From positions 1-49,811 of the forward strand of contig JANQNN010000039.1 of NCBI GenBank assembly GCA_028279545.1: a stretch of DNA of 49,811 nt. The letters are read 5' to 3'. This DNA comes from Nitrosopumilaceae archaeon (GTDB taxonomy: Archaea > Thermoproteota > Nitrososphaeria > Nitrososphaerales > Nitrosopumilaceae). Shown here piece by piece: positions 6,951-49,811 of the stretch; within the stretch, counting starts at the first letter, position 1, and every line of letters starts with the position of its first letter. The position numbers and the translations under genes were made by a program. The notes under the pieces are model-generated. The model was not told the DNA's origin and did no database searches. It worked only from the letters and a program-made list of their open reading frames with translations.

Positions 6951-8549
6951 GTGCAGACAAAGTTCATTTTCGTAACAGGGGGGGTTATGTCAGGCCTAGG
7001 AAAGGGAGTTATGACCTCATCAGTTGCAAAATTATTACAATTAGCCAATCAAAAAGTATCTTGTGTAAAAATTGATCCCTACTTGAATTTTGATGCTGGG
7101 ACAATGAATCCTGTAGCACATGGGGAAGTTTTTGTCACCGAAGATGGCGGGGAATGTGATATGGATATTGGAAATTATGAGCGTTTTTTAAATCAAAATA
7201 TTCCAAAAAATCACAATATTACTACAGCTCAAGTTTATTCCTCAGTTATTGAATCAGAAAGAAAAGGTGAGTATTTAGGAGCATGTGTTCAAATTATTCC
7301 TCATATTACTGATGAAATAAAAAATAGAATTAGAACAATTGCAAAAGATGAAAATTTGGATTTTTTGGTTGTAGAATGCGGTGGAACTGTTGGCGATATT
7401 GAATCACTTCCATTTTTAGAAGCTCTTAGACAAATGAGAGTAGAAGAAGGACCTAAAAATGTCCTTTTTGTACATGTTACTCTTGCACCTTCTTTGGATG
7501 TTGTTGGTGAGCAAAAAACAAAACCAACTCAACATAGTGTACAAGAATTACGAAGAATAGGTATCCAACCTGACTTTTTGGCTGTAAGATGCACTCAACC
7601 CTTGGAGGAAAAAACCAAGAAAAAAATTGCATTATTTACAAATGTAACTTCAGAAGATGTTCTTTCTTGTCATGATGCTAAAACCATTTTTGAAGTACCT
7701 CAAATTCTATATGACCAAGGTATTTTGGATTTTATTTTTACAAAATTTGGCAAAGTTGGAATGGTAAATGCCTCTGCAAATTGGGATGATTGGAATCGGA
7801 TAGCTGAATCCATGGTTAATCATAAAGACCAAAAAATAAAAATTGCCATGGTAGGAAAATATGTTACTTTAGCAGATAGTTATGTTAGCGTAAACCAGGC
7901 ACTAAAGCACGCAGGAGCCAAACTTGGGAAATCTGTGATTATTGACTGGATTGATTCAGAATCTATTAATGATTATAACCAACTTTCAGATTTTGATGGC
8001 ATTCTTGTTCCTGGAGGATTTGGCACAAGAGGCTCAGAAGGAATAATAAAAACTGCAAATTTTGCAAGAGAAAACAACATCCCATATCTTGGAATTTGTT
8101 TTGGATTTCAACTAGCAGCAATTGCATTCGGACGAGAAATTTTAAAATTAGAAGACGCAAATTCAACTGAAATTAAAAAAGATGCAAAAAACCCCGTTGT
8201 AGATTTACTTCCAGAGCAAAAGAAAATATCAGATATGGGTGGGTCCTTAAGACTTGGAGGGCATCAAATTACAATAAAACCAAATACTATATCTCAAGTA
8301 ATTTACGAGTCAAATTCAATTAAAAAAAGACATCGACATCGTTATGAAATAAATTCCAATTACATTGAAGAATTTGAAAAAAATGGAATGATCTTTTCTG
8401 CAGAAAGTGATGATGGAAAGAGAATGGAAATTTTAGAAATACCTAGTCATAAATTCTATTTGGGAGTACAATTTCACCCAGAATTTAATAGCAGACCAGG
8501 ATTTCCTGAAAAAGCTTTTCTTTCTTTTATAGAGGCAGCTTCAAAATAG
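6951..8549 (+). CDS. pyrG: CTP synthase
   Basis: PyrG makes CTP from UTP, ATP and glutamine. The 532 residues contain an N-terminal synthetase domain with the nucleotide loop [11 protein letters not shown] (9-19) and [12 protein letters not shown] (141-152). A C-terminal glutamine amidotransferase domain follows, with nucleophile C383 in GICFGFQ and H509 and E511 in FHPEF. Length is typical. The start is GTG 6951; the ATG two bases earlier is in another frame. The gene converges on the NAD kinase gene with a single base between the two stop codons, so the 3' ends of the two transcripts must overlap. Confidence 0.97.
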
Positions 8550-8550
8550 T

Positions 8551-9561
8551 TTATTCAATTTTAGAAATTTCATAAATTTTTTGTCGCGCATCTCTTACAG
8601 AAACTTTCTTTTTTACATAGCCTTTATCTAATAAATGACTAAGAGCTAACCGAACAGTTCTGTCTGGCAACAGAGTTTTATTTGATAGATCCTTTTGGGT
8701 TAACGCTCCTTCATACTCCAAAGTTTTTAAAAGTAATTTAGAACTTGGAGGCATACTCAATAATTCTTCTGCCAAATGTGCTTTTTTTGCCAAAGCGGAA
8801 ATCGCAGTAGAATCTTTTTTGAGACGAATAATTTTTGCTGGGGGAAGAAATTGGGTGCATTCTACTATTTTGTTAACTTTGTATCTTTCAAGACCATCTA
8901 AAACCACTTCACAGTGCAAACGTGCAGAAATATCATCTATTTCAATTGAACTCTGGTTAGAAACAATTATTGGCCGTCTATTCACGTTCAATGAGTTTAC
9001 TGAAATTATTTCAAAAACCTCTGAATCCTCGAAAATAACCGGGCCTCCCGCAGACATTGAATAGGCAGAAGAACCAATTGGTGTGGAAATAATTATTCCA
9101 TCACTACTATCATGCCACACCTCTTCACCATTTAGACTAAGTGTATGCTCCATTAACATTGCACTTTTTGAGGGAAAAATTGCAACGTCATTTAAAACTG
9201 GAAATACATTTTTTCCATCAATTTTTACTCCTAATCGTGGGATTTCCTCAATTGAATAATTTTGTTTTTTTAATCTATTAACATATGATGAGAATTCTTT
9301 AAGGTCAATTTGAGCTAAAAAACCGCCATATTCACCTTCATTAATTCCTAAAACAGGTGAAGTAGAATCAAATTCCCTGTGAAAATAATTTCTAATCCCT
9401 TTATCTCCTCCTAGAACTATAATGCAATCAAATTCTTTTTTTTTTGACTTTGGTGTTATGATAAAGGGTTTGATATTTTTCTCAACAAGTATTTTTTTAA
9501 TTATTTTTTGAGATGAGGTTGAACCTGATCCGTAAATTCCAATCTGCACAGAGGACTTCAT
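8551..9561 (-). CDS. NAD kinase with a C-terminal winged-helix domain
   Basis: Residues 1-250 are an ATP-NAD kinase domain, which phosphorylates NAD to NADP. The motifs are VLGGDKGIRNYF (50-60), LNDVAIF (123-129) and DGIIISTPIGSSAYSMSAGG (154-173). The usual GGDGT motif reads GGDKG here, so the glycine after the catalytic aspartate is a lysine. Residues about 265-334 form a winged helix-turn-helix of MarR/ArsR type (SSKLLLKTLEYEGALTQKDL, then RTVRLALSHLLDKGYV) that ordinary NAD kinases lack. The fusion suggests a kinase that also binds nucleic acid or senses a ligand; this is inference. It follows the PfkB-like gene after 25 bases on the same strand. Confidence 0.88.
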   Translation of the reverse strand: MKSSVQIGIYGSGSTSSQKIIKKILVEKNIKPFIITPKSKKKEFDCIIVLGGDKGIRNYFHREFDSTSPVLGINEGEYGGFLAQIDLKEFSSYVNRLKKQNYSIEEIPRLGVKIDGKNVFPVLNDVAIFPSKSAMLMEHTLSLNGEEVWHDSSDGIIISTPIGSSAYSMSAGGPVIFEDSEVFEIISVNSLNVNRRPIIVSNQSSIEIDDISARLHCEVVLDGLERYKVNKIVECTQFLPPAKIIRLKKDSTAISALAKKAHLAEELLSMPPSSKLLLKTLEYEGALTQKDLSNKTLLPDRTVRLALSHLLDKGYVKKKVSVRDARQKIYEISKIE

Positions 9562-37761: not shown

Positions 37762-39432
37762 ATGTATTCCCAAATAAAAAATACCTCATTGCAAGGTACT
37801 AGTATAATTGTGGGACTAATTGCAATTTTTGTTTTGGGACTCTTTGAGGTAAATGAGGTTTTGGGCGAAGTAATATTTGATGAAAACTTTGATGGTGGAA
37901 TTTCAGGATGGTCTCAAAATTTAGAATTGTCAGACACGACCAATATAGGTGCAACCTTTGATCCTTGCCCTGGAACTTCACAGACCCTGCCATCTATACC
38001 CAACGAACCTTCTCCAAGTTCTCCCAATTGGGGATTTGTCCAAGCAACGATTGTTGGCGGTGATGGTACCCCTGTAAACGTTGTATGTGAAAAAAGCTTT
38101 ACTGTAGTAGAAACTGGTGCTTATTCGCTAAAGGCAATTTTAGGGGCAACTGATTGTGATGGATGTGTTATCTCATCAAATTTGTACATTGATGAGGTTT
38201 TTGCATTTGGAGTAAATGGTGAGGGGCCCACCCCTCCATTTTCGCAAACCAATATTCATCCAGAAGCTCAATCCCAATTTCTTTCAGCTGGTGCACATAC
38301 CCTGCAAATTGAGATGGCAACAACAACTGATTCAGGTGGACCATTTAGAGCAAGTTTCGACAATATTAAAATTAAAAAAGAAACTCCCATTGAATTTATT
38401 TTAGAAGTTAATCCTGCAATTTCATTAACAAGCGTTGCAGATGTTACAATTGATTCATCGGAAAACGTTTTTGCTTTAGCGTCGGATAAAGTTAAAAAAA
38501 TATCTCCCACTGGAATTTTACTCTTGGAGTTTGGCGAACAAGGTTCAGGTGATGGACAGTTTATTAATTCACAAGGAATCTCCTTAGATTCAATCGGAAA
38601 CATCTATGTTGCAGATTCTAGCAACCACAGAATTCAAAAGTTTGATTCTACAGGAACATATGTTTCTCAATTTGGAACTGAAGGTTCAGGTGATGGACAG
38701 TTTAATTTTCCTCGAGGAATAATTCTGGATGAATCTGGAAACATCTATGTAGCTGATGGGAGTAATCACAGAATTCAAAAGTTTGATTCTAGTGGCACAT
38801 ATGTTTCTCAATTTGGAACACAAGGTTCAGGTGATGGCCAATTTAATAGTCCCGCAGGGATTGCAATTGATGAAGAAGGAAATATTTTCGTTGCTGATAT
38901 TGGAAACCACAGAATTCAAAAGTTTGATTCTAGTGGCACATATGTTTCTCAATTTGGAACACAAGGCTCTGAAGATGGCGAGCTTGATTTTCCGCAGGGA
39001 GTGACTTTTGATTCATTAGGAAACATCTATGTTGCAGATTCTGTTAATAACCGAGTTCAAAAGTTCAACTCTAATGGTACATACGTATCACAATTTGGAA
39101 CACAGGGTTCAGGTGATGGTCAGTTTACTAGTCCCCAAAGACTTGCCTTAGATAGCAGGGATAACATCTATGTTGCAGATACTTTTAATGACCGTATTCA
39201 AAAGTTTGGTATACCTTGTAATATTCCAGGAGTTGGGGACATGACAATAATTTTGGATTGTATCTTGGTTGCAAATGAAACCGCCCCGGAAAGTGTTTTT
39301 GTTCAAGAAGGGGCATTACTAACTATTCCAAACGGATTAACATTAAGTATTCCTTCAGGAAATAAAATTACCGTTGAACAGGGAAGTGGAGTTTTAATAA
39401 AAGATGGGGGAACTCTTGAAGTAATTTCATAA
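37762..39432 (+). CDS. secreted NHL-repeat beta-propeller protein
   Basis: The 556-residue protein has an N-terminal hydrophobic segment (SIIVGLIAIFVLGLF, 14-28) serving as signal peptide or anchor. Residues 36-205 may form a beta-sandwich (FDENFDGGISGWSQN opening). Five NHL repeats of 47 residues span about 258-485, with cores such as GNIYVADSSNHRIQKFDS and GSGDGQFN, preceded by a degenerate unit. The end (about 486-556) is a repetitive beta region (LTIPNGLTLSIPSGNKITVE). NHL propellers bind proteins or ligands. A TTGATAAAAAC element about 30 bases upstream may be its promoter. Function and partner are unknown. Confidence 0.82.
   Translation: MYSQIKNTSLQGTSIIVGLIAIFVLGLFEVNEVLGEVIFDENFDGGISGWSQNLELSDTTNIGATFDPCPGTSQTLPSIPNEPSPSSPNWGFVQATIVGGDGTPVNVVCEKSFTVVETGAYSLKAILGATDCDGCVISSNLYIDEVFAFGVNGEGPTPPFSQTNIHPEAQSQFLSAGAHTLQIEMATTTDSGGPFRASFDNIKIKKETPIEFILEVNPAISLTSVADVTIDSSENVFALASDKVKKISPTGILLLEFGEQGSGDGQFINSQGISLDSIGNIYVADSSNHRIQKFDSTGTYVSQFGTEGSGDGQFNFPRGIILDESGNIYVADGSNHRIQKFDSSGTYVSQFGTQGSGDGQFNSPAGIAIDEEGNIFVADIGNHRIQKFDSSGTYVSQFGTQGSEDGELDFPQGVTFDSLGNIYVADSVNNRVQKFNSNGTYVSQFGTQGSGDGQFTSPQRLALDSRDNIYVADTFNDRIQKFGIPCNIPGVGDMTIILDCILVANETAPESVFVQEGALLTIPNGLTLSIPSGNKITVEQGSGVLIKDGGTLEVIS
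38542..39223 (+). repeat. 141-bp tandem coding repeats (NHL units)
   Basis: GGTTCAGGTGATGG recurs at 141-bp spacing, with most of the unit conserved at DNA level (for example ATTCAAAAGTTTGATTCTA). Five units are visible; the fourth is the most divergent (GGCTCTGAAGATGGC). Confidence 0.85.
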
Positions 39433-40264: not shown

Positions 40265-41095
40265 CTATTTTTTCTTTTCTTTTTTAGAATTAATTTTATC
40301 TAATGGTTTTGCAGATTTCCACAAAAGTTGACACAAGTTGTCTAGATTCTTTATCATGTCTTTTGCATTTGTGGATAAAGAAAAATCAAGTTCAGAGTTT
40401 GAGGATGTTTGATTTGAATCAGACATTATCATCTGTTTATCTTTTTGTACCACTATTCTTCCTTTTGATGGAAGTTTACACATTTTAGTTTCTGTTGCAT
40501 CAAATCTTTTAACAAAAGAAATCATTTCAGGATCTTCAACTTCTACTAATAATCTTACCTTTCCGCCATTTTTTTCACAGACCTTAATTTTTTCAGGAAT
40601 TATACTGTGATACATTTTTGAAATGTCTTCTAGAGTTGTTGCGATGTATACAGTTCCAGAGGATTTTTCAATTAATTGACCAATGTCGGAGTAGATATTG
40701 GTTCTTCCTTGAACAATTTTTAGAGTTGGTATACTTGTTCCAAGATTGGTAGCAATTTCACTATTTATTTTATCAACAATTGCTTCCCCCGATTGTTTAA
40801 TTTTCTTTAGTTCAGATTCTTTTCTTTCCAAAGCAATTTTTAATGCTTGTTGAGGTTCTACTGCAATACATAATTTTGGACTTGATAAAGTAGTTGAAAT
40901 AATATTTCTATCAACCAACTTATCTACAGTTCTATACATTCGTGCTCTATCAATATTGAGATCTTTTGCTAAAGCACTTGCAGTAATTGGACCTGTTCTT
41001 AAAAGACTCAAATAGATTTTAGATTCCAAATCTTCAAGATCTAATGTCCCTTTTAATTCAACGGCAAGTTTTTCAACTTGTTCTTGGGCTGACAT
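40265..41095 (-). CDS. TrmB-family transcriptional regulator
   Basis: The 276 residues begin with a winged helix-turn-helix of TrmB type (SKIYLSLLRTGPITASALAK, then DRARMYRTVDKLVDRNII). A coiled-coil spacer (about 85-125) and a C-terminal TrmB-like domain of PLD-like fold (GRTNIYSDIGQLIEKSSGTV onwards) follow. It ends in a lysine-rich tail. TrmB regulators respond to sugars or other metabolites; the ligand here is unknown. The ATG at 41093-41095 overlaps the stop of a 35-codon ORF upstream and is preceded by GGAGGT. The pilus genes end 220 bases upstream, and it may regulate them. Confidence 0.85.
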   Translation of the reverse strand: MSAQEQVEKLAVELKGTLDLEDLESKIYLSLLRTGPITASALAKDLNIDRARMYRTVDKLVDRNIISTTLSSPKLCIAVEPQQALKIALERKESELKKIKQSGEAIVDKINSEIATNLGTSIPTLKIVQGRTNIYSDIGQLIEKSSGTVYIATTLEDISKMYHSIIPEKIKVCEKNGGKVRLLVEVEDPEMISFVKRFDATETKMCKLPSKGRIVVQKDKQMIMSDSNQTSSNSELDFSLSTNAKDMIKNLDNLCQLLWKSAKPLDKINSKKEKKK

Positions 41096-41202
41096 CAATT
41101 TTTTTTACCTCCAATTGATTCATTATGATTTTCTGAAAAAAGATACATTTCGTCAATCTTACTTTGGATTGTTTTTATGTTCCGTGCTGTCATTTTTGTC
41201 AT
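41095..41202 (-). CDS. possible 35-residue protein coupled to the TrmB gene
   Basis: The frame from ATG 41200-41202 has 35 codons. Its TGA overlaps the ATG of the TrmB gene, and the TrmB ribosome binding site lies inside it, which supports translational coupling. A CTAAATTTTA element lies 24 bases before the in-frame ATG at 41191-41193, the likelier start. The product is helical-looking and charged (TIQSKIDEMYLFSENHNE) with no recognised family. Confidence 0.4.
   Translation of the reverse strand: MTKMTARNIKTIQSKIDEMYLFSENHNESIGGKKN
41107..41112 (-). promoter_or_regulatory. ribosome binding site of the TrmB gene
   Basis: GGAGGT on the minus strand, eleven bases before the ATG at 41095. It is one of the few strong Shine-Dalgarno sites here, as expected for a non-first gene in a transcript. 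Confidence 0.5.
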
Positions 41203-41317: not shown

Positions 41318-42280
41318 CTAAATTACATTGAAAGAAATTACTGCAATTACAATCATAGCAACCACATGTTTTATTCCAGCTACGTAGGATCCCGCACCAA
41401 TTTTTCCTGCAGCCAAACCTCCAAAAACAGCTTCTATTATAGCCATATTAAACAAAGCAGTTTCCATCAAACCAATGTCCATATTTGTGAGAGATGAGAA
41501 TAATCCTCCTTCAGGTGCTCCTCCAGTGGCAATCATGCTTTCTTGAACTTTTTCAATTTCTGTGAAAAAGCTAGTTACCAATAAAACTGAAACTGCTAAA
41601 AATACCACATAAGAGATGTAAATTGTATAGGTATAAGGTGCTAGTTGAGATTTTCTATTTTTTTCAATATTTTGCATTTCGGTAACATGTTTTTGAATCA
41701 TCTCTAAATTTGCATCAATATCTCCACCAATTTTAATAGCCATTTCTAAAAGTAATGTAACTCGTCTTGAAATTTTTGTATTGGTTGAATTTGCAAAATG
41801 TTCTAGGGCTTCATTCATTGGCATTCCCCAGCTAATGTTTGCTCTGAGATTTTTTAATGGATTACTTAGTGCACCAAGATTTCTATTTGCAGTTTCCTCA
41901 AGAGCTTTTATTAAATTGGAACCACTCTGAACTGAACTCAATAATGCCAAAAGAAAAACTGGCATGTGCTTATCTACACTATCTTTGCGTTGAACCTCTT
42001 TTAATTGGTATAATGTAAGTGGAACTATTCCTGCAATCACTCCAAAAATTAAACCAACTTCCTTAACTGATTCAGATACTGATCCTAATAGTTGTGAAAT
42101 TCCGATTACAATAATTGCTCCAGCAATTGAAACTAAAACTAGTCTAAAGACGGTATTATTAAAAATTGATTTATTAGGAGTTAGTCCCTTCATAGATTTT
42201 TCATTTATTTTTTTAGGATCAATAATTTTCCTTTTAGATAATTTTCTTTCTATTTTTTTTGATTTATTTTCAAGTGCCAT
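41318..42280 (-). CDS. type II/IV pilus platform protein, second copy (T2SSF, TadC-like)
   Basis: The 320 residues (from ATG 42280) contain an N-terminal basic stretch, paired membrane helices (VFRLVLVSIAGAIIVIGISQ; VGLIFGVIAGIVPLTLY), a cytoplasmic helical T2SSF domain (KALEETANRNLGALSNPLKN; GDIDANLEMIQKH) and a C-terminal membrane region (YTIYISYVVFLAVSVLLV). Archaellum FlaJ-type proteins carry two such domains in one chain. Here they are two genes, as in Tad systems. The start at 42280 has AGAGGT (42287-42292) six bases upstream and lies just past the stop of the first platform gene. It is the last gene of a three-gene minus-strand operon. Confidence 0.85.
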   Translation of the reverse strand: MALENKSKKIERKLSKRKIIDPKKINEKSMKGLTPNKSIFNNTVFRLVLVSIAGAIIVIGISQLLGSVSESVKEVGLIFGVIAGIVPLTLYQLKEVQRKDSVDKHMPVFLLALLSSVQSGSNLIKALEETANRNLGALSNPLKNLRANISWGMPMNEALEHFANSTNTKISRRVTLLLEMAIKIGGDIDANLEMIQKHVTEMQNIEKNRKSQLAPYTYTIYISYVVFLAVSVLLVTSFFTEIEKVQESMIATGGAPEGGLFSSLTNMDIGLMETALFNMAIIEAVFGGLAAGKIGAGSYVAGIKHVVAMIVIAVISFNVI

Positions 42281-42284
42281 TGTT

Positions 42285-43202
42285 TTACCTCTTTGGTACC
42301 ATACCATCCATCATAATTAACATCATTACTCCACATAATGGTATAATTGCAAAAGTTAGAATGTTGATCAAAGTTACCAAATCAAATCCTCCTAAACTTG
42401 GACTCATTATTCCCATAATTGATAACATTATTACTGCAAGCAATGGGAATACGATTAAAAGAATTGTGTAAATTTCTGCCACCGCTCCAAGTGAATCGGA
42501 GCTTCTTGCCATTAGTTGTTTTTTTTCTTCTAATTGCACCTTTGCTGTGGCATTAAAGTACTCTTTTAAATCCCCTCCTGCTTGGGCGGTATTTATTGCT
42601 CCTTCTAATAATTCTGAATAGGGACCTGTGGGTGTTCTTTGAATAAGGTCGTTAATCGCAGTAATCAAGTCCATTCCCATAATATCCAAATTTCTTACAA
42701 TAAGCCGTGCATCCTTCACCATTTCTTCGTCAGAATCTTCTTTGGCTATGGCTTTGAATATCCCCTCTAAAGTTAATCCACTGGTAGCTAGGGTTGACAT
42801 GTATCCAATAAAATGTGGGATTTCCTCCATTAGTTTTGAGGATCTGGTCTTTACTCGGAATGAGGGAACCATAAAAAGAATACCAAAAGTCATAGCTCCA
42901 AAGCCTAAAGCAGTGCCGAGAGGAATAATGTATTCAATTGTTGGCGGTTGAAAATCCACAATCAATGAAACTGGAATTCCAATAATTGCTCCCATAATGG
43001 TTGATAGCATGGTGAAAAAAACCATACTTGAAATATACACCTCATACGGAATTGGCATCATTGATTCTTTGATGGCTTTTTCTAATTGGTTGAACTTAGG
43101 ATAAAGAAATTTGCATCGTTGACCAAGTAATTTGTAAGCGTAAATCTGAATTTTACTAGCTTTTTTTGTTTCTATTTTTTTTCTTTTTTGAGAAACACTC
43201 AT
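42285..43202 (-). CDS. type II/IV pilus platform protein, first copy (T2SSF, TadB-like)
   Basis: The 305 residues have a basic N-terminus, two membrane helices (about 55-80, VFFTMLSTIMGAIIGIPVSL; about 90-112, TALGFGAMTFGILFMV), a cytoplasmic T2SSF domain (FIGYMSTLATSGLTLEGIFK, then MGMDLITAINDLIQRTPTGP), and two C-terminal helices (IYTILLIVFPLLAVIMLSIM; LVTLINILTFAIIPLCGVMM). It would sit in the membrane as half of the pilus assembly platform beside the ATPase. The ATG follows the ATPase stop directly, so translation is coupled. Confidence 0.87.
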   Translation of the reverse strand: MSVSQKRKKIETKKASKIQIYAYKLLGQRCKFLYPKFNQLEKAIKESMMPIPYEVYISSMVFFTMLSTIMGAIIGIPVSLIVDFQPPTIEYIIPLGTALGFGAMTFGILFMVPSFRVKTRSSKLMEEIPHFIGYMSTLATSGLTLEGIFKAIAKEDSDEEMVKDARLIVRNLDIMGMDLITAINDLIQRTPTGPYSELLEGAINTAQAGGDLKEYFNATAKVQLEEKKQLMARSSDSLGAVAEIYTILLIVFPLLAVIMLSIMGIMSPSLGGFDLVTLINILTFAIIPLCGVMMLIMMDGMVPKR

Positions 43203-43203
43203 G

Positions 43204-44910
43204 TTAAACCATTACCCTCTTTCTTTCATAGAATCTTTCAGGATCTTCATAATACTCCATGATTATTTCGCTAACCTTTTTGTGCTCTCTAATGTCTTTT
43301 TTAACCATCCATTCTAAGGCAACTCTTCTTTTTGTTAATTCATAATCAATTTTTTCTTGTGTATCGCCATCTCTTTCTTTTATTTTTTCAAACACAACAC
43401 TTTTTCCACTAAAATCATGTTTGTCTGTTTTTGGATTCCATTTGAATACAGTGTTTGTTTTTAGTTGCCCCGTTTTTTCATCAACACCATCTATTTCCGC
43501 AATTTGAATTATTCTTCGAGCAGATTTATTTCCAATTCGAATTTTTAGTTGAAGAGAAACTAAATCTAGACTGTTTGCAATCAAAGTCTTTGGCACATCC
43601 ATGGGTGCAGATACCAATCTAGTCAATGTGGCATCTATCGAATCAGCGTGAATTGATGAAAAACCACCATGACCTGTAGCCATTGCCTGAAATAATGTAT
43701 AGGCTTCCTTTCCTCTAGTTTCTCCAACGATTATAATATCAGGTCTTTGTCTTAATGCCGCTCTTAGTAAATCAAATTGATTAATTTCACCTATCTGAGT
43801 ATCTGTAAAAGTTTGTCTTGATACTGCAGGAACCCAATTTTCATGAGGAAGATTCAACTCTTGAGTATCTTCGATACTAACTACTTTTTGACCAGGTTTA
43901 ATAAAGGTCGATAAAGCATTCAAAGCTGTAGTTTTTCCACTTGCAGTTCCTCCGGCAATTAGCATTGTTGATTTTTTTTCTGCTAAAAACCACAAAAAGG
44001 CTGCAATGTCTATAGAGCAAGTTCCAAATTTGATTAAGTCAATTATGGTAATTGGATCTGCTCTAAATCTTCTTATGGTAAAGGTACTTCCTCTTTTGGT
44101 AATTTCCTGCCCTAGAGTAAGATTAATTCTGCTTCCATCTGGTAAAGTTGCATCGACTATTGGGTCTGCCATTGACACATGTTTTCCACAAATATATGCC
44201 AGTTTTCTTGTAAAATTATTCAGATCTTCCTCATTTTGATAAATAATATTTGTTGGAATTGACTCGAGTTCTCTATGCCAAACATATAATGGAATATTTG
44301 TTCCATCACAACTGATTTCCTCAATCATGTGATCTCGCATAAGGGGTTCTATTTTTCCAAGGTGAACAAAATCTCGTATCGCATAATATTTTATTCTTGC
44401 AATATTTTTTGTAGGAATTTTGAGACGATATGTCTTTATCATTTTATCAATTTTCCTCCCAAGTCTAATTCGAGCTTCTTCTTTGGATTTAATGGAATTC
44501 ATAGAAACTGAGAGCTCAGTCATGAGTAGTTTTTTTATTATTTCTAATGCCTTTGCATCTCTTTCAGAAAGAATTGGTTCTATTACTTGATATCTAATCC
44601 CCCCTCGTGCTGTAGGATCTTTAATTAAGCCGGCTCTAACATCATGCATATCAAAGTCGATTTTTGATAATGTCATAAATTGAGGAATAGATTGTGGTTT
44701 TGGTTTGGAATCTAATTCATTAATATTATTTATTTTTGAGTTATTTTTTGTTTTTACATCTTTTTTGGGTGATTGAGAAAATTTAGGAGTTTTTGGTAAT
44801 TTAGGTAATTTAGGTAAATTTGGTATATTTTGTAATTTTTTTTTAAAAATTGTCAGGTTCAAATTGTTAAAATTTAAGCACTGATTGTGTTTTAACGGTT
44901 GTTCGTTCAA
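43204..44910 (-). CDS. type II/IV secretion ATPase (TadA/VirB11-like) of the pilus system
   Basis: The 568-residue ATPase powers pilin assembly. An N-terminal region unlike the family core (about 20-75) is rich in Pro-Lys (NLPKLPKLPKTPKF). The catalytic core has Walker A GGTASGKTT (320-328), the Asp box EDTQELNLP (347-355), Walker B DIIIVGE (391-397), and the His box TGHGGFSSIHAD near 412-423. Before it comes a CpaF-type N-terminal domain (MRDHMIEEISCDGTNIPLYV). The start is TTG 44908-44910 inside a palindrome, with a TTCAAAAGT element about 28 bases upstream. It heads the minus-strand operon of the pilus locus. Confidence 0.9.
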   Translation of the reverse strand: MNEQPLKHNQCLNFNNLNLTIFKKKLQNIPNLPKLPKLPKTPKFSQSPKKDVKTKNNSKINNINELDSKPKPQSIPQFMTLSKIDFDMHDVRAGLIKDPTARGGIRYQVIEPILSERDAKALEIIKKLLMTELSVSMNSIKSKEEARIRLGRKIDKMIKTYRLKIPTKNIARIKYYAIRDFVHLGKIEPLMRDHMIEEISCDGTNIPLYVWHRELESIPTNIIYQNEEDLNNFTRKLAYICGKHVSMADPIVDATLPDGSRINLTLGQEITKRGSTFTIRRFRADPITIIDLIKFGTCSIDIAAFLWFLAEKKSTMLIAGGTASGKTTALNALSTFIKPGQKVVSIEDTQELNLPHENWVPAVSRQTFTDTQIGEINQFDLLRAALRQRPDIIIVGETRGKEAYTLFQAMATGHGGFSSIHADSIDATLTRLVSAPMDVPKTLIANSLDLVSLQLKIRIGNKSARRIIQIAEIDGVDEKTGQLKTNTVFKWNPKTDKHDFSGKSVVFEKIKERDGDTQEKIDYELTKRRVALEWMVKKDIREHKKVSEIIMEYYEDPERFYERKRVMV

Positions 44911-44919
44911 TTGAACAAC
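44898..44919. promoter_or_regulatory. nested palindrome over the ATPase start codon
   Basis: GTTCAATTGAAC (44905-44916) is a perfect 12-bp palindrome. Outside it, GTTGTTC (44898-44904) and GAACAAC (44913-44919) are inverted copies as well. It covers the TTG start of the ATPase gene in the divergent promoter region, where transcription is expected to begin; possible operator. Confidence 0.4.
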
Positions 44920-44997: not shown

Positions 44998-46221
44998 ATG
45001 TTAGATAAATTAAAGAAAAAAAAATTAGATAAGTTGGCCTTTCAGCCTAAATCTATTTCAAAAAAGAATCTTTCTGAATTTATTAAAGAGCCTGCCAAGG
45101 GCATCGAAAAAGACAACAAAATTCAAATCGCAAAAAAAACCCAATCGATAGTAGAAGAACCAATTGGTCAAATAAATGAAAAAGAAAATGAACCAATTAA
45201 TTCAGACTCTTTAGAATCTCTAAAAGATCCCAAAAATTTAATGAGTAGTGTTGAAGTTGACAAGTCTCAACACCTCTTTTTTGAAATTGAAAAAATCCCT
45301 GAAAAAACTATAAAGCCTATAATTGATTTTAATGAAAATTCCATTTCATACCCAATTTTAACCAAAATTGGGAAAGAGCCTAATGACGTTCAATTTCTTG
45401 ACGGACTTGTAACTGATGGAATTTTAAGGAAAAAAATTCATGAGAAATTAATAATATGTCCTCATCATCGTGATGAATTTTCTTCCTCGGTAAAATTGTA
45501 TTGCCCAAAATGCAATTCTGTAAATGTAAAAAAACTAAATTTATTTGAACATGTAAAGTGTGGATTTATTACAGAAAATTCCAATTATGACTTTTCAAAT
45601 CCCGAAAATTCAAAGTGCCCATCTTGTAAAAGAGATATTGTTGATTTTAAAAAAGAAATTAAAATACCTGCAATGTGGCACCAATGTGCAGAATGTAACG
45701 AAAAATTTGATAATGCAATAATCAAAATGTTTTGTAGACGTCATGAACATGATTTTGATATTAATTCTGGTCATTTTGTAACCACATATTCCTATCAAGT
45801 AATTGATCAAGATGATCCTATCTCAGCTGTTGATGGGCAAACTAGAGATGACTTGATTTCCTTGTTTAAGGATTTAGATTTTTCAGCAGAATTTAAAGCG
45901 CTAATTAAAGGCAAAAGCGGAAATCATCACAAGGTTCCTATTTTTGCAAAAAATAATTCCAATAGAAATTCAATTGCTGTCTTTTTTGATTATGGCCCAA
46001 AGAAAATATCAAAATCCGATATCAATTCACTTTTGATTCCTACATTAGATATTGGTCCAAATTATAGCCTATTAATTTCATCCAAAGGAGCAACTGAAGA
46101 GGTAAGATCTATTGCAAAACAATATGGAATAGAAATTATTTCAGATTCTAACCCTTCAAACATTATTGAAAAAGTAGATGAATTCATTACAAACCGATTT
46201 TCTCAAGCAGGTGAAAATTAG
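44998..46221 (+). CDS. TackOD1-like metal-binding protein with a C-terminal Mrr-like domain
   Basis: The 407 residues have a charged, probably disordered N-terminus (1-125), then a domain of cysteine and histidine ligands (about 130-265): C154, C169/C172, H185/C188, C207/C210, H228/C230/C233, C246/H249. The order CP..., then HVKCG, then CPSC, then HQCAEC resembles the thaumarchaeal output domain 1 (TackOD1). Residues about 285-385 (SLLISSKGATEEVRSIAKQY) look like the Mrr/restriction-endonuclease-like fold, with no catalytic motif that I can see. It is the first plus-strand gene of the pilus locus and overlaps the first pilin gene by one base. It may regulate or adapt the pilus machinery; this is inference. 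Confidence 0.65.
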   Translation: MLDKLKKKKLDKLAFQPKSISKKNLSEFIKEPAKGIEKDNKIQIAKKTQSIVEEPIGQINEKENEPINSDSLESLKDPKNLMSSVEVDKSQHLFFEIEKIPEKTIKPIIDFNENSISYPILTKIGKEPNDVQFLDGLVTDGILRKKIHEKLIICPHHRDEFSSSVKLYCPKCNSVNVKKLNLFEHVKCGFITENSNYDFSNPENSKCPSCKRDIVDFKKEIKIPAMWHQCAECNEKFDNAIIKMFCRRHEHDFDINSGHFVTTYSYQVIDQDDPISAVDGQTRDDLISLFKDLDFSAEFKALIKGKSGNHHKVPIFAKNNSNRNSIAVFFDYGPKKISKSDINSLLIPTLDIGPNYSLLISSKGATEEVRSIAKQYGIEIISDSNPSNIIEKVDEFITNRFSQAGEN

Positions 46222-46733
46222 TGAAAAATAATTTTAAAAAAATTTCATCCAAATCTCGGAGAGGCATTAGTAATATCATTGGAAGTATTTTGGTTCTAGC
46301 CTTGGTTGCATCTATTGGTTCAGTGATTTTATTTCAAGGACTAAATCAAATAAACGCATTTTCTTATGATTTATCAAATTTTGATAATACCAAAAATCTT
46401 GCATTGCAAGAGGATTTATTATTTGAAAATATTAGATTTGATCCAAATACCAATCACCTACTTTTGCATATCGGCAATATTGGCACAACTGAAACAACCA
46501 TTACCAGTATAACTGCAGTAAAGATTGATACTCAAGAATTAATACTTGATTGGGACGAGGTTGATTCTATAGTACAAATTGAAGATTATGTATTTTTAAA
46601 TCAAACCGCAAATCTTTCACAAACTCCCTTTATCTGGAATTCAACTGAATATTCAAATTCTGATTATAAAATTTCCTTAACTACTGCAAAAGGAAATTTC
46701 TTTTCAACTATTGCGAGGCCATTTAACACTTAG
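46221..46733 (+). CDS. pilin-like protein 1 (class III signal peptide)
   Basis: The 170 residues start with a basic leader ending SRRG (12-15) and then ISNIIGSILVLALVASIGSV, the class III signal pattern cut by the archaeal prepilin peptidase after the glycine. The rest is probably beta-rich, with the segment LLLHIGNIGTTETTITSI. The GTG start overlaps the TackOD1-like stop. No prepilin peptidase gene is in the window. Function as minor or major subunit is undecided. Confidence 0.8.
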   Translation: MKNNFKKISSKSRRGISNIIGSILVLALVASIGSVILFQGLNQINAFSYDLSNFDNTKNLALQEDLLFENIRFDPNTNHLLLHIGNIGTTETTITSITAVKIDTQELILDWDEVDSIVQIEDYVFLNQTANLSQTPFIWNSTEYSNSDYKISLTTAKGNFFSTIARPFNT

Positions 46734-46739
46734 ATTGTC

Positions 46740-47432
46740 ATGAACCAAAAAAAAATATTCCGTAATTTGTCAAAATACGAACTCCGAAAAAGACGAGGAG
46801 TTTCAGAAATAATTGGTTCAATTATGTTAGTTGCTATTACAGTTGTTGGCGCAGCAGTTTTAACAACTTTTTTGAGTGATTCTTTTGCTGAAGGAGGATT
46901 AACATCAGCTTCCAATGAAAGAGTAGGGGCAGTTACAGTAAATTTGATGGGATATGATTCTCGTGATTCCACTAATTTAATGAATTTAGCAAATTTGGAC
47001 AATCAGTTTGATGGAAAACTATGCGGTAATTGTACAAATGTAAATCCTAACAAAATACCTGAGGACGGAGGTTCTGAATTTCTTGTAATGCAAATTCAAA
47101 ATAAAGGTATTAATTCACTATTTTTAAGAAATGTATTTCTAAATAATGTTGATCATGTTTGGGACCCAAACACATCTGGAGTTGCTCTTGATGCGGAGTT
47201 TACAGATAATTCAGGAAAATATCCCCGCGATGGAATGTTTTCGGTTATTTCTCTTTCAAATCCCCCAATTCAAAATGTTGATAATCAAATTCAAAGTGGC
47301 CAAATTGTAAATCTATTAGTCAAACTTGGAGTAAATGAGGATATAGACCTTAACAAGAGTATTAGAGTACTTTTGAATGTTGGAGAAATGTCCAACGTTG
47401 ATTTTGTTATTGAAAGCGGGGATGCTAGATGA
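46740..47432 (+). CDS. pilin-like protein 2 (class III signal peptide)
   Basis: The 230-residue protein carries a longer leader ending RKRRG (16-20) followed by VSEIIGSIMLVAITVVGAAV. The remainder has two cysteines (CGNC, about 98-101) and beta-like segments (FLVMQIQNKGINSLFLRNVF). It starts six bases after pilin 1 and ends with an ATGA overlap into pilin 3, so the genes are coupled. It is larger than a typical archaeal pilin, and the CGNC pair is unusual. Confidence 0.8.
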   Translation: MNQKKIFRNLSKYELRKRRGVSEIIGSIMLVAITVVGAAVLTTFLSDSFAEGGLTSASNERVGAVTVNLMGYDSRDSTNLMNLANLDNQFDGKLCGNCTNVNPNKIPEDGGSEFLVMQIQNKGINSLFLRNVFLNNVDHVWDPNTSGVALDAEFTDNSGKYPRDGMFSVISLSNPPIQNVDNQIQSGQIVNLLVKLGVNEDIDLNKSIRVLLNVGEMSNVDFVIESGDAR

Positions 47433-49252
47433 ATTTTTATGATTTCCAATACTTTTCAAAAAAAAGACGTGGAATTTCCTCAATTGTTGGAGCTCTGCTT
47501 TTTACAATTTTAATGGTGGCGACATTTACTGTATTTGGTCAATTTTTAGATGCTCAAATTGATATTGTTGATACTCAAAAAGAAGTTTCTGACATTGGAT
47601 TAAAAAAACTAAATGAAGAATTTTCTGTTTCAGCACATACTGATGCAAGTAATGAATTAACTCTTTGGGTGCATAATTCAGGACAAAATCCTGTTGAAAT
47701 TTCTACGGTTTGGATAATGAACAAAACAATGCCTGACCAACCTACAAAAAGAATTTCAATCGATGCTAAAGACTCTTTTATTCCAAATGGAGTAGACAGT
47801 ACTAAGAATATTTTAGCTTCTCAAGATTTGTACTTGAATCCTGATTCTTATGATTTTAAAGTCATTTCATCTTTAGGAACATTGGAATATGTTAATGATC
47901 TTATCGTAGAAGGTGGGGTTTCAGGGGAATTTTTGAGAAATGAATTAGTTGCAATTCCTCCAGATGTGCTATCCGGACAAAACATGACCCTGGCCATGTT
48001 TGTTACCAATGTGTCACAATTACCCCTTGCTTCTGTATCTCCATTCTACAATCCTCCTCTAACAAATTATCCATCAAATATTGATGAAATTACTCTAACA
48101 ACTCCAAGTTTGTACGATATAGATCCTTACGAAACTGTTCTATTCAAGTGGCAAGCGCAAATTTCAGGCACAAATGGAACAAGTATGAATTTTACAAATT
48201 ATGCAACAGGGATGGAACCTGTTTCAACCTTGGACATTCAAAGTAACATTAGTAGCGAATTTGTAACCATTCATGAAAATCCAGACCAATTTGATGATCT
48301 TGATGATATAATTCTAAATCGTGAGTTATTTACAAAACCAGAATTCTTTTTTGTTATACCCGCACCTTTTGGTGATTCTTCTGATAAGGGGTTATGGGGG
48401 ATAAATGTCGCCAATCCCACAGGGGTGGATATGTACGTAAACAAGGTTGTAATTAGTTTGTTTAGTCCCAATGATCAATTTACTGATGATGTAGACAAAA
48501 TTTTTGCTGAAGGGGCTTGTAATCCCACAACAGTTGCACCAACTCCATCAAATTGGAGTTGTCCAGTTGAAAATCAATTAGTTTGGCAAAATCTATCCAC
48601 ACCCATTAAAATTGATCCAAAATCAGCATATTCATTTTTAGCCCTTGTTGAACCTGGAGATTTATCCACTGGTACTTTTGACTTGGATTCAATAATGGTT
48701 GATGGGTTTGTATCTTCTGATATTGGTTCTTTTGGAAAAACTGGATATCATTCTTCAATGCAATGGAATAATGCTACTGACTTTCCACTTGCAAATGTCT
48801 TTTTGACAACTGATAAGGATGATGCTGTAAACCCTGCCAAAATGCGTTCAATAATAACAGGAATTACCTCTGATACTGTTCAAACTTTTAATGTTGTCTT
48901 AGCGGATTTGGATACTGATAGTGCAAATTACATTGAACCATCAGGGACAAATACCAAATTAGTGATTGATGTTCCTCCAAATTGGGAAGATGTAACGATT
49001 CTTAGTGCCCCGGGTTTTTCAACCAGCTCTGTTTCACACGGCGATGGTTCTGTACAAATAATTGGTGATCTTACTACTATAATCCACGGTGATGGTACAC
49101 GTAAATCGAGAGTTCTTGAATTTTCAGCAAAAGCTCCTATTGTAACTGATGAAAAAATGTATGTTTTGCGTGTTTATGCTCCAGGTATAGTTGAGGCTCC
49201 ACAATTTGCCATGGGACCCACTGCAGAAATAATCCTTCAAGTGGTGCCTTAA
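47429..49252 (+). CDS. large pilin-like adhesin (class III signal peptide)
   Basis: The 607 residues begin with KKRRG (11-15), then ISSIVGALLFTILMVATFTV, as in a pilin, but continue as a long extracellular region of several probable beta-sandwich domains (for example TLWVHNSGQNPVEISTVWI near 80, and VFLTTDKDDAVN near 460). The size suggests a tip adhesin or surface protein rather than a shaft subunit. Residues 70-140 align closely with the next gene, so the two are paralogues. It is co-transcribed with the other pilins. Confidence 0.8.
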   Translation: MNFYDFQYFSKKRRGISSIVGALLFTILMVATFTVFGQFLDAQIDIVDTQKEVSDIGLKKLNEEFSVSAHTDASNELTLWVHNSGQNPVEISTVWIMNKTMPDQPTKRISIDAKDSFIPNGVDSTKNILASQDLYLNPDSYDFKVISSLGTLEYVNDLIVEGGVSGEFLRNELVAIPPDVLSGQNMTLAMFVTNVSQLPLASVSPFYNPPLTNYPSNIDEITLTTPSLYDIDPYETVLFKWQAQISGTNGTSMNFTNYATGMEPVSTLDIQSNISSEFVTIHENPDQFDDLDDIILNRELFTKPEFFFVIPAPFGDSSDKGLWGINVANPTGVDMYVNKVVISLFSPNDQFTDDVDKIFAEGACNPTTVAPTPSNWSCPVENQLVWQNLSTPIKIDPKSAYSFLALVEPGDLSTGTFDLDSIMVDGFVSSDIGSFGKTGYHSSMQWNNATDFPLANVFLTTDKDDAVNPAKMRSIITGITSDTVQTFNVVLADLDTDSANYIEPSGTNTKLVIDVPPNWEDVTILSAPGFSTSSVSHGDGSVQIIGDLTTIIHGDGTRKSRVLEFSAKAPIVTDEKMYVLRVYAPGIVEAPQFAMGPTAEIILQVVP

Positions 49253-49270: not shown

Positions 49271-49811
49271 ATGATTCTAAGAAATAAACGACATAATAAA
49301 AAACGACGTGGAATTGCCACAATAATTGGGGCACTAATTTTTACCGCACTCATGGTTACTGCTTTTTCTGTTTTATCTCCCACATTAAATGCTCAATCAA
49401 ATATTGCTGAAACTGGAAAATTGATGTTTGATACCGAAGTAAAAAAACAAAAAGAAAAGTTCACCATGGTTTCATCGATAGACGAAAATAGCAATTTAAA
49501 AATTGACATTCATAATACTGGTCAAAACCCACTTGAGATTCCAACTGTTTGGATTACCAATAACACATTAACAGATAACCCATCAAAACGAATCTCAATA
49601 GAATCGCCTCATTCTATTATTCCAAGTGGAGCAAGTTCAAATATTTTATCTTCAAAAAATTTGTACATGCATCCTGGCCCTGTTCTTGGGGGAACCACAC
49701 CAATTATTTCTACAATTGAATTTGATAATTCAAATAATAACGATGGCTCCTTATGCAGTTCTAGTTCATGTGCAATTGATCTTACTGTAGCCTCTGGAAC
49801 AAATCGTATGA
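49271..49811 (+). CDS. pilin-like protein 4, 3' end beyond the window
   Basis: The frame from ATG 49271 runs open to the last base (180 codons). The leader ends KKRRG (10-14) and is followed by IATIIGALIFTALMVTAFSV. Residues from about 70 on (DIHNTGQNPLEIPTVWI) are a clear paralogue of pilin-like protein 3. A GGGG run precedes the ATG by three bases. The gene is truncated by the window; its real length is unknown but is probably similarly large. Confidence 0.85.
   Translation, partial: MILRNKRHNKKRRGIATIIGALIFTALMVTAFSVLSPTLNAQSNIAETGKLMFDTEVKKQKEKFTMVSSIDENSNLKIDIHNTGQNPLEIPTVWITNNTLTDNPSKRISIESPHSIIPSGASSNILSSKNLYMHPGPVLGGTTPIISTIEFDNSNNNDGSLCSSSSCAIDLTVASGTNRM

Follow-up and report, generated by a model that had tools for sequence, protein, structure and literature searches.

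One gene of the window (the whole stretch of 49,811 nucleotides that was analysed, from a Nitrosopumilaceae archaeon) encodes a protein that, judging from its domains and its gene neighbourhood, probably controls or helps to assemble cell-surface machines, while DNA cutting or defence is an unlikely role. In marine ammonia-oxidising archaea its gene regularly accompanies the motor of one pilus type, and relatives elsewhere neighbour pilus motors or sugar-polymer synthases. The protein joins the zinc-binding domain TackOD1 to a C-terminal domain (CTD) of nuclease-like fold that does not carry the catalytic triad, and its gene is placed directly upstream of pilins and head-to-head with a pilus ATPase-TadC1-TadC2-TrmB set (Table 1). 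The genome holding the window (1.92 Mb, 57 contigs) is near Nitrosopumilus, MAGs of this genus providing the nearest named homologues of the protein in a search with an alignment of closer homologues.

The link between TackOD1 and pili is already known: double-zinc-ribbon proteins of arCOG06883 were listed in thaumarchaeal type IV pilus (T4P) loci (Makarova et al., 2016; PMC4858521), and the domain was later named, its T4P link cited and its function called obscure (Galperin et al., 2018; PMC5847659). These articles describe the domain in stand-alone, REC- and REC-wHTH- forms, and ammonia-oxidising archaea are reported to have four pilus types with functions still to be elucidated (PMC7554672). 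The window protein shares with TackOD1/arCOG06883 the zinc-binding domain and the pilus-locus association, being encoded with T4P ATPase, TadC and pilins, and adds a pseudo-nuclease CTD, found in the non-REC members sampled, and an association of the family with GT2 glycosyltransferases. In the passages of the two articles that were consulted, TackOD1 is connected neither with a nuclease-like domain at the C-terminus nor with glycosyltransferases, and both features appear undescribed. The first-pass annotation had considered the combination of domains and pilus locus to be without known role, which holds for the function and not for the pilus link. New here are the co-occurrence with a cognate ATPase, the phylum-wide presence of the CTD with pilus proximity, REC paralogues that adjoin GT2 genes and lack the CTD, and a unique promoter dyad.

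Table 1. Position of the gene, its domains and the neighbouring pilus genes in the window.
Feature	Coordinates	Strand	Remarks
TrmB-family regulator	40265..41098	-	Candidate dedicated transcription factor; in most f1 loci the motor operon ends with it
Pilus platform protein TadC2 (T2SSF)	41318..42307	-	Pfam
Pilus platform protein TadC1 (T2SSF)	42285..43202	-	Pfam
Type IV pilus assembly ATPase (T2SSE)	43204..44910	-	Pfam E=1e-41
21-bp dyad TTGTTCGTTCAATTGAACAAC	44899..44919	.	Candidate operator; divergent ATPase/TackOD1 promoter
TackOD1-pseudo-nuclease gene	44998..46221	+	407 aa, from the ATG at 44998 to the end of the stop at 46221
N-terminus, residues 1-85	44998..45252	+	Low-complexity, presumably disordered; two short recurring motifs
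TackOD1 first part, residues 97-152	45286..45453	+	Winged-helix-like element order H-E-E-H-H-E in model
TackOD1 zinc-ribbon part, residues 153-268	45454..45801	+	12 conserved ligands
CTD, residues 282-403	45841..46206	+	Predicted restriction-endonuclease-like (Mrr/AF1548) domain without catalytic triad
Pilin 1	46221..46733	+	Class III signal RRGISNIIGS; start overlaps TackOD1-gene stop by 1 nt
Pilin 2 (Pilin_N PF07790)	46740..47432	+	Pfam
Large pilin-like protein 3	47429..49252	+	RRGISSIVGA
Further pilin-3-like protein	49271..49811	+	Cut by contig end

Domain composition of the protein

The N-terminus looks low-complexity and presumably disordered, as the first-pass annotation had it. Its two recurring motifs in homologues are an M-F-basic start and an [IL][ST]S[FI][FL]K-like element, represented by LSEFIK (residues 25-30) in the window protein; the N-terminal motif is matched by 14 of 27 homologues against a mean of 0.5 in shuffled sequences, and none of 2000 shuffles equalled this number, a statistic that ignores relatedness.

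TackOD1 (PF18551) covers residues 97-268 (Pfam E=6e-22, 78.5 bits against a cut-off of 32). The ligands C154, H157, C169, C172, H185, C188, C207, C210, C230, C233, C246 and H251 are invariant in ten diverse homologues, which bears out the earlier recognition of about a dozen Cys/His ligands in TackOD1 order. About 11 conserved metal ligands in CXXC/HXXC order are expected of the domain, and the twelve are consistent with three predicted zinc sites. TackOD1 alone gave no PDB match below E=0.05 in Foldseek, and the zinc-ribbon and RING matches of PDB profile searches were set aside as generic cysteine-pattern matches. Winged helices and zinc ribbons are both common in DNA-binding proteins. No REC domain match was found in the window protein by Pfam, which sets it apart from the REC-TackOD1 response regulators.

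Residues 86-407 were modelled with AlphaFold2 from a 27-row alignment; mean pLDDT was 85.6 (mostly 80-90 in the CTD) and the pTM was only 0.49, so the mutual placement of the domains is uncertain. The predicted order of elements in the CTD is alpha-beta-beta-beta-alpha-beta-alpha-beta-alpha, and its best PDB match by fold is the Mrr-like PD-(D/E)xK protein AF1548 (1y88; E=1.7e-6), followed by NucS/EndoMS (Foldseek). AF1548 is also the top PDB match by sequence for a CTD-only profile (E=0.002). The Pfam family Mrr_cat (PF04471), with no match in the window protein itself, is recognised in three of 14 proteins of the family (best E=6e-5); the L068 protein stays just under the cut-off of 21 bits (20.5 bits, E=5.6e-4) and the PadR fusion of L093 reaches 21.2 bits. 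As predicted from the Foldseek rank of AF1548, the CTD profile match and the Mrr_cat matches, the CTD is an REase-like core fold of the Mrr-like type, in agreement with what had first been proposed.

AF1548 retains the active-site D and ExK (EID...IECK), whereas P, F and D align to its D, E and K in the window protein. None of 90 family CTDs carries the catalytic D...(E/D/Q)xK triad (D + [E/D/Q] + K); the first reading of the gene, which saw no catalytic motif, is thus correct, and a nuclease was rejected for this reason. Residues G305, S307, G308, H311, D351 and Y376 are conserved at 81-100% in the same 90 CTDs, which argues that the domain is not decaying; they may form either a scaffold surface or a ligand pocket. 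Among the weaker Foldseek matches of the model is the N-terminal domain of RPB5 (E about 0.03), a non-catalytic REase-like fold used as a scaffold; RPB5 is a subunit of RNA polymerase, a context unrelated to that of the pilus protein. As the Mrr fold is common in defence, a defence device was also considered; it is scarcely credible and was rejected, since there is no PADLOC match, the catalytic residues are lacking and throughout the family the gene stays in one place within a core surface-structure locus.

The CTD occurs in other settings as well. It is fused to a PadR winged helix (L093:3566-4330), it forms stand-alone proteins of about 130-170 aa (L070:928-1320; L094-L098), and a second, weak match is located in a 209-aa ORF of the same genome as the window (G000:C26:82793-82972(-), L131).

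Linkage to the pilus motor and the shared promoter

The TackOD1 gene runs into pilin 1 with an overlap of one base between stop and start codon (TAGTG); a GTG start of pilin 1 is plausible, in keeping with the direct junction to the first pilin noted in the first-pass annotation. Upstream of the pilus locus, positions 37762-39432(+) encode a protein with several NHL-like repeats (GSGDGQF..P.GI..D..GNIYVAD...HRIQKF).

The window protein and its cognate pilus ATPase were searched for in 151 genomes. In the family of the window (f1), where the gene is divergent from the ATPase, each of the 29 genomes encoding the complete protein also has the cognate ATPase class (at least 61% identity). This ATPase, or part of it, is present in another six f1 genomes that gave no full-length protein match: a clear beginning of the matching gene follows TadC2 at a contig end in L133, a likely beginning is located at a contig end in L134, contigs of G054, G066 and G079 end on the side where the TackOD1 gene would be, and the sixth genome is G028. 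The L137 contig, which ends on the relevant side, still holds the dyad beside the ATPase. There are three pilus ATPases per genome, and no TackOD1-CTD gene lies near those of a second class (about 41% identity; L138, L141), which indicates that the protein belongs to one pilus type.

Beyond f1, 40 loci outside the order of the window were sampled from other families of the phylum, about one per family. They were picked by a TackOD1-CTD profile match, so that the presence of the CTD in 40 of 40 was partly favoured; pilus proximity was no criterion, and 21 of the 40 have an ATPase or TadC gene within six genes, where about 2% would be expected for a random gene with three ATPases per genome (an estimate). 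In several families the gene comes last, after ATPase-TadC1-TadC2 (L065, L067-L070, L074-L080 except L079), and the L073 homologue (G143:C3:905928-906728) lies in the same locus as TadC1/ATPase. The linkage therefore survives rearrangement, from divergent in f1 to last gene of the motor set elsewhere, and is stronger than the first-pass annotation had proposed. In family f4 the protein (L079, L087) does not adjoin the cognate ATPase (L144, L145). Some of the 40 loci are near GT2 glycosyltransferases, TackOD1-CTD being beside GT2 in L203, L208 and L218, and in others (for example L200, L210, L216, L221 and L228) neither a pilus nor a GT2 gene was recognised in the vicinity. KaiC-like ATPases and prepilin peptidases (L082 by Pfam; L223 and L227 by single-sequence profile) are also among the neighbours in other families.

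These neighbours, and the first place of the gene in the f1 pilin operon with its 1-nt overlap in the window, would suit an assembly factor or chaperone for pilins or an adhesin, not a regulator. Such a role seems rather improbable, given that other families place the gene with ATPase/TadC rather than with pilins, that there is no pilin substrate for the relatives encoded beside GT2 synthases, and that pilins have signal peptides and a membrane location whereas the TackOD1-CTD protein looks cytosolic.

The dyad between the two divergent genes has a single match in the 1.92 Mb genome, even a looser version being expected only 0.02 times in the window; many f1 relatives have it in the corresponding position, and about 2 Mb of other loci gave no further match. 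In L046 (G088:C1), a roughly 2-kb, three-ORF insertion (7328-9223) between the ATPase and TackOD1 genes is bordered by two identical copies of the dyad, one on either side. The dyad is likely the operator of a dedicated regulator. TrmB, conserved in most of these loci, is the obvious candidate to bind it, a tentative assignment given that the dyad persists in g3 genomes (L058, L059), where no TrmB ortholog is closely linked.

Control of transcription of the locus by the window protein itself is the main competing explanation: its winged helix and zinc ribbons would bind the divergent promoter, and the pseudo-nuclease would sense a ligand or dimerise. In its favour are the divergent orientation of the two genes, whose promoters flank a unique conserved dyad, the PadR wHTH-CTD fusion of L093, which suggests that the CTD can serve a transcription regulator, and the published REC-wHTH-TackOD1 architecture (PMC5847659). 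It is nevertheless considered unlikely, since most f1 loci already have a TrmB-family regulator and the dyad is confined to f1 while the protein is phylum-wide and often non-divergent. The helix-2/helix-3 region is also net acidic in f1 homologues (about -2 to -6; +1 in the window protein), an argument of little weight, as the REC-type paralogues also lack a clearly basic charge and the types separate only weakly.

REC-TackOD1 paralogues and GT2 synthases

The genome of the window encodes one REC-wHTH-TackOD1 protein (C49:8709-9119), which adjoins a GT2 membrane glycosyltransferase. Forty further loci were sampled by shorter TackOD1 matches, most of them REC-type by similarity to this paralogue, and GT2 was found within two genes in 22 of them, three of the 22 (L182, L187 and L188) encoding TackOD1-CTD proteins without REC. 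About one locus in 40 would be expected by chance given 11 GT2 genes per genome (an estimate), and the loci are related by descent, so that these counts are not independent trials. The REC-TackOD1 paralogues are without the CTD, and no protein with both REC and CTD was found in the samples; the two domains are therefore read as alternative input modules on one output domain. A polysaccharide deacetylase neighbours GT2/REC-TackOD1 in both cases scanned.

Other features of these loci were also observed. REC-TackOD1 response regulators are located beside GT2 in L002/L140 and L152-L191, some of them with a polysaccharide deacetylase, where two-component control of an exopolysaccharide is possible. 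Other REC-TackOD1 genes, in L155 (5777-7603) and the similar loci L152 and L159, have CheY-like REC genes and a PIN-T2SSE-KH ATPase beside them, the Pfam assignment having been made for L155 alone.

The pairing of relatives with polysaccharide synthases bears on DNA handling, in which the protein would be part of a DNA-uptake or exchange pilus with its nuclease-like domain binding DNA. This would accord with the REase-like fold joined to zinc ribbons and with archaeal Ups-type pili, which mediate DNA exchange (cited in PMC7554672). It is very improbable in view of this pairing, of the triad being absent in 90 of 90 CTDs, and of the loci, in which no recurring DNA-processing gene was seen (most neighbours being unannotated). 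Of the roles initially entertained, regulator and assembly factor are thus favoured, while defence and nuclease-based DNA handling are disfavoured by the evidence given above.

Proposed role in the control of surface structures

The best explanation, with about an even chance of being right, is an accessory or regulatory subunit in the cytosol that has no enzymatic activity and works through protein contacts with the pilus motor; motor docking, the direction of control and the role of each domain are drawn from genomics. The soluble, zinc-stabilised subunit would serve one archaeal type IV pilus, its TackOD1 part docking on the cytoplasmic face of the motor and platform (ATPase-TadC1-TadC2) and its flexible N-terminus offering short docking peptides. 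The CTD would be an input or dimerisation module, in the place that REC has in the paralogues. Against this explanation count the TackOD1-CTD loci where neither a pilus nor a GT2 gene was recognised, the separation from the cognate ATPase in f4, the elements of TackOD1 that recall DNA-binding proteins and the failure of TackOD1 to give a confident structural match. The neighbourhood alone fits a motor-binding subunit and a co-regulated factor alike; since the output domain is common to pilus motors and GT2 synthases, control at the protein level fits better than control at a promoter.

More tentatively, and with some doubt, TackOD1 may be a control module that archaea use broadly on their cell-surface machines, a functional counterpart of bacterial PilZ-type control that acts on pilus motors and BcsA-like polysaccharide synthases. 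Its switch would be either phosphorylation (REC) or a ligand domain of the pseudo-nuclease type, whose conserved pocket would have been repurposed. The likeness proposed to PilZ-type adaptors and FimX is one of role only, a control module common to T4P ATPases and BcsA-type synthases, and a sequence relation is not claimed; an interaction of FimX with a pilus ATPase has been reported (PMC5595344). The alternation of REC and pseudo-nuclease, together with its recurrence beside pilus motors as well as membrane glycosyltransferases, provides TackOD1 with a testable role in the protein-level control of archaeal surface structures, parallel to that of bacterial c-di-GMP effectors. If true, such control would explain the presence of a nuclease-like fold in a pilus locus without invoking DNA.
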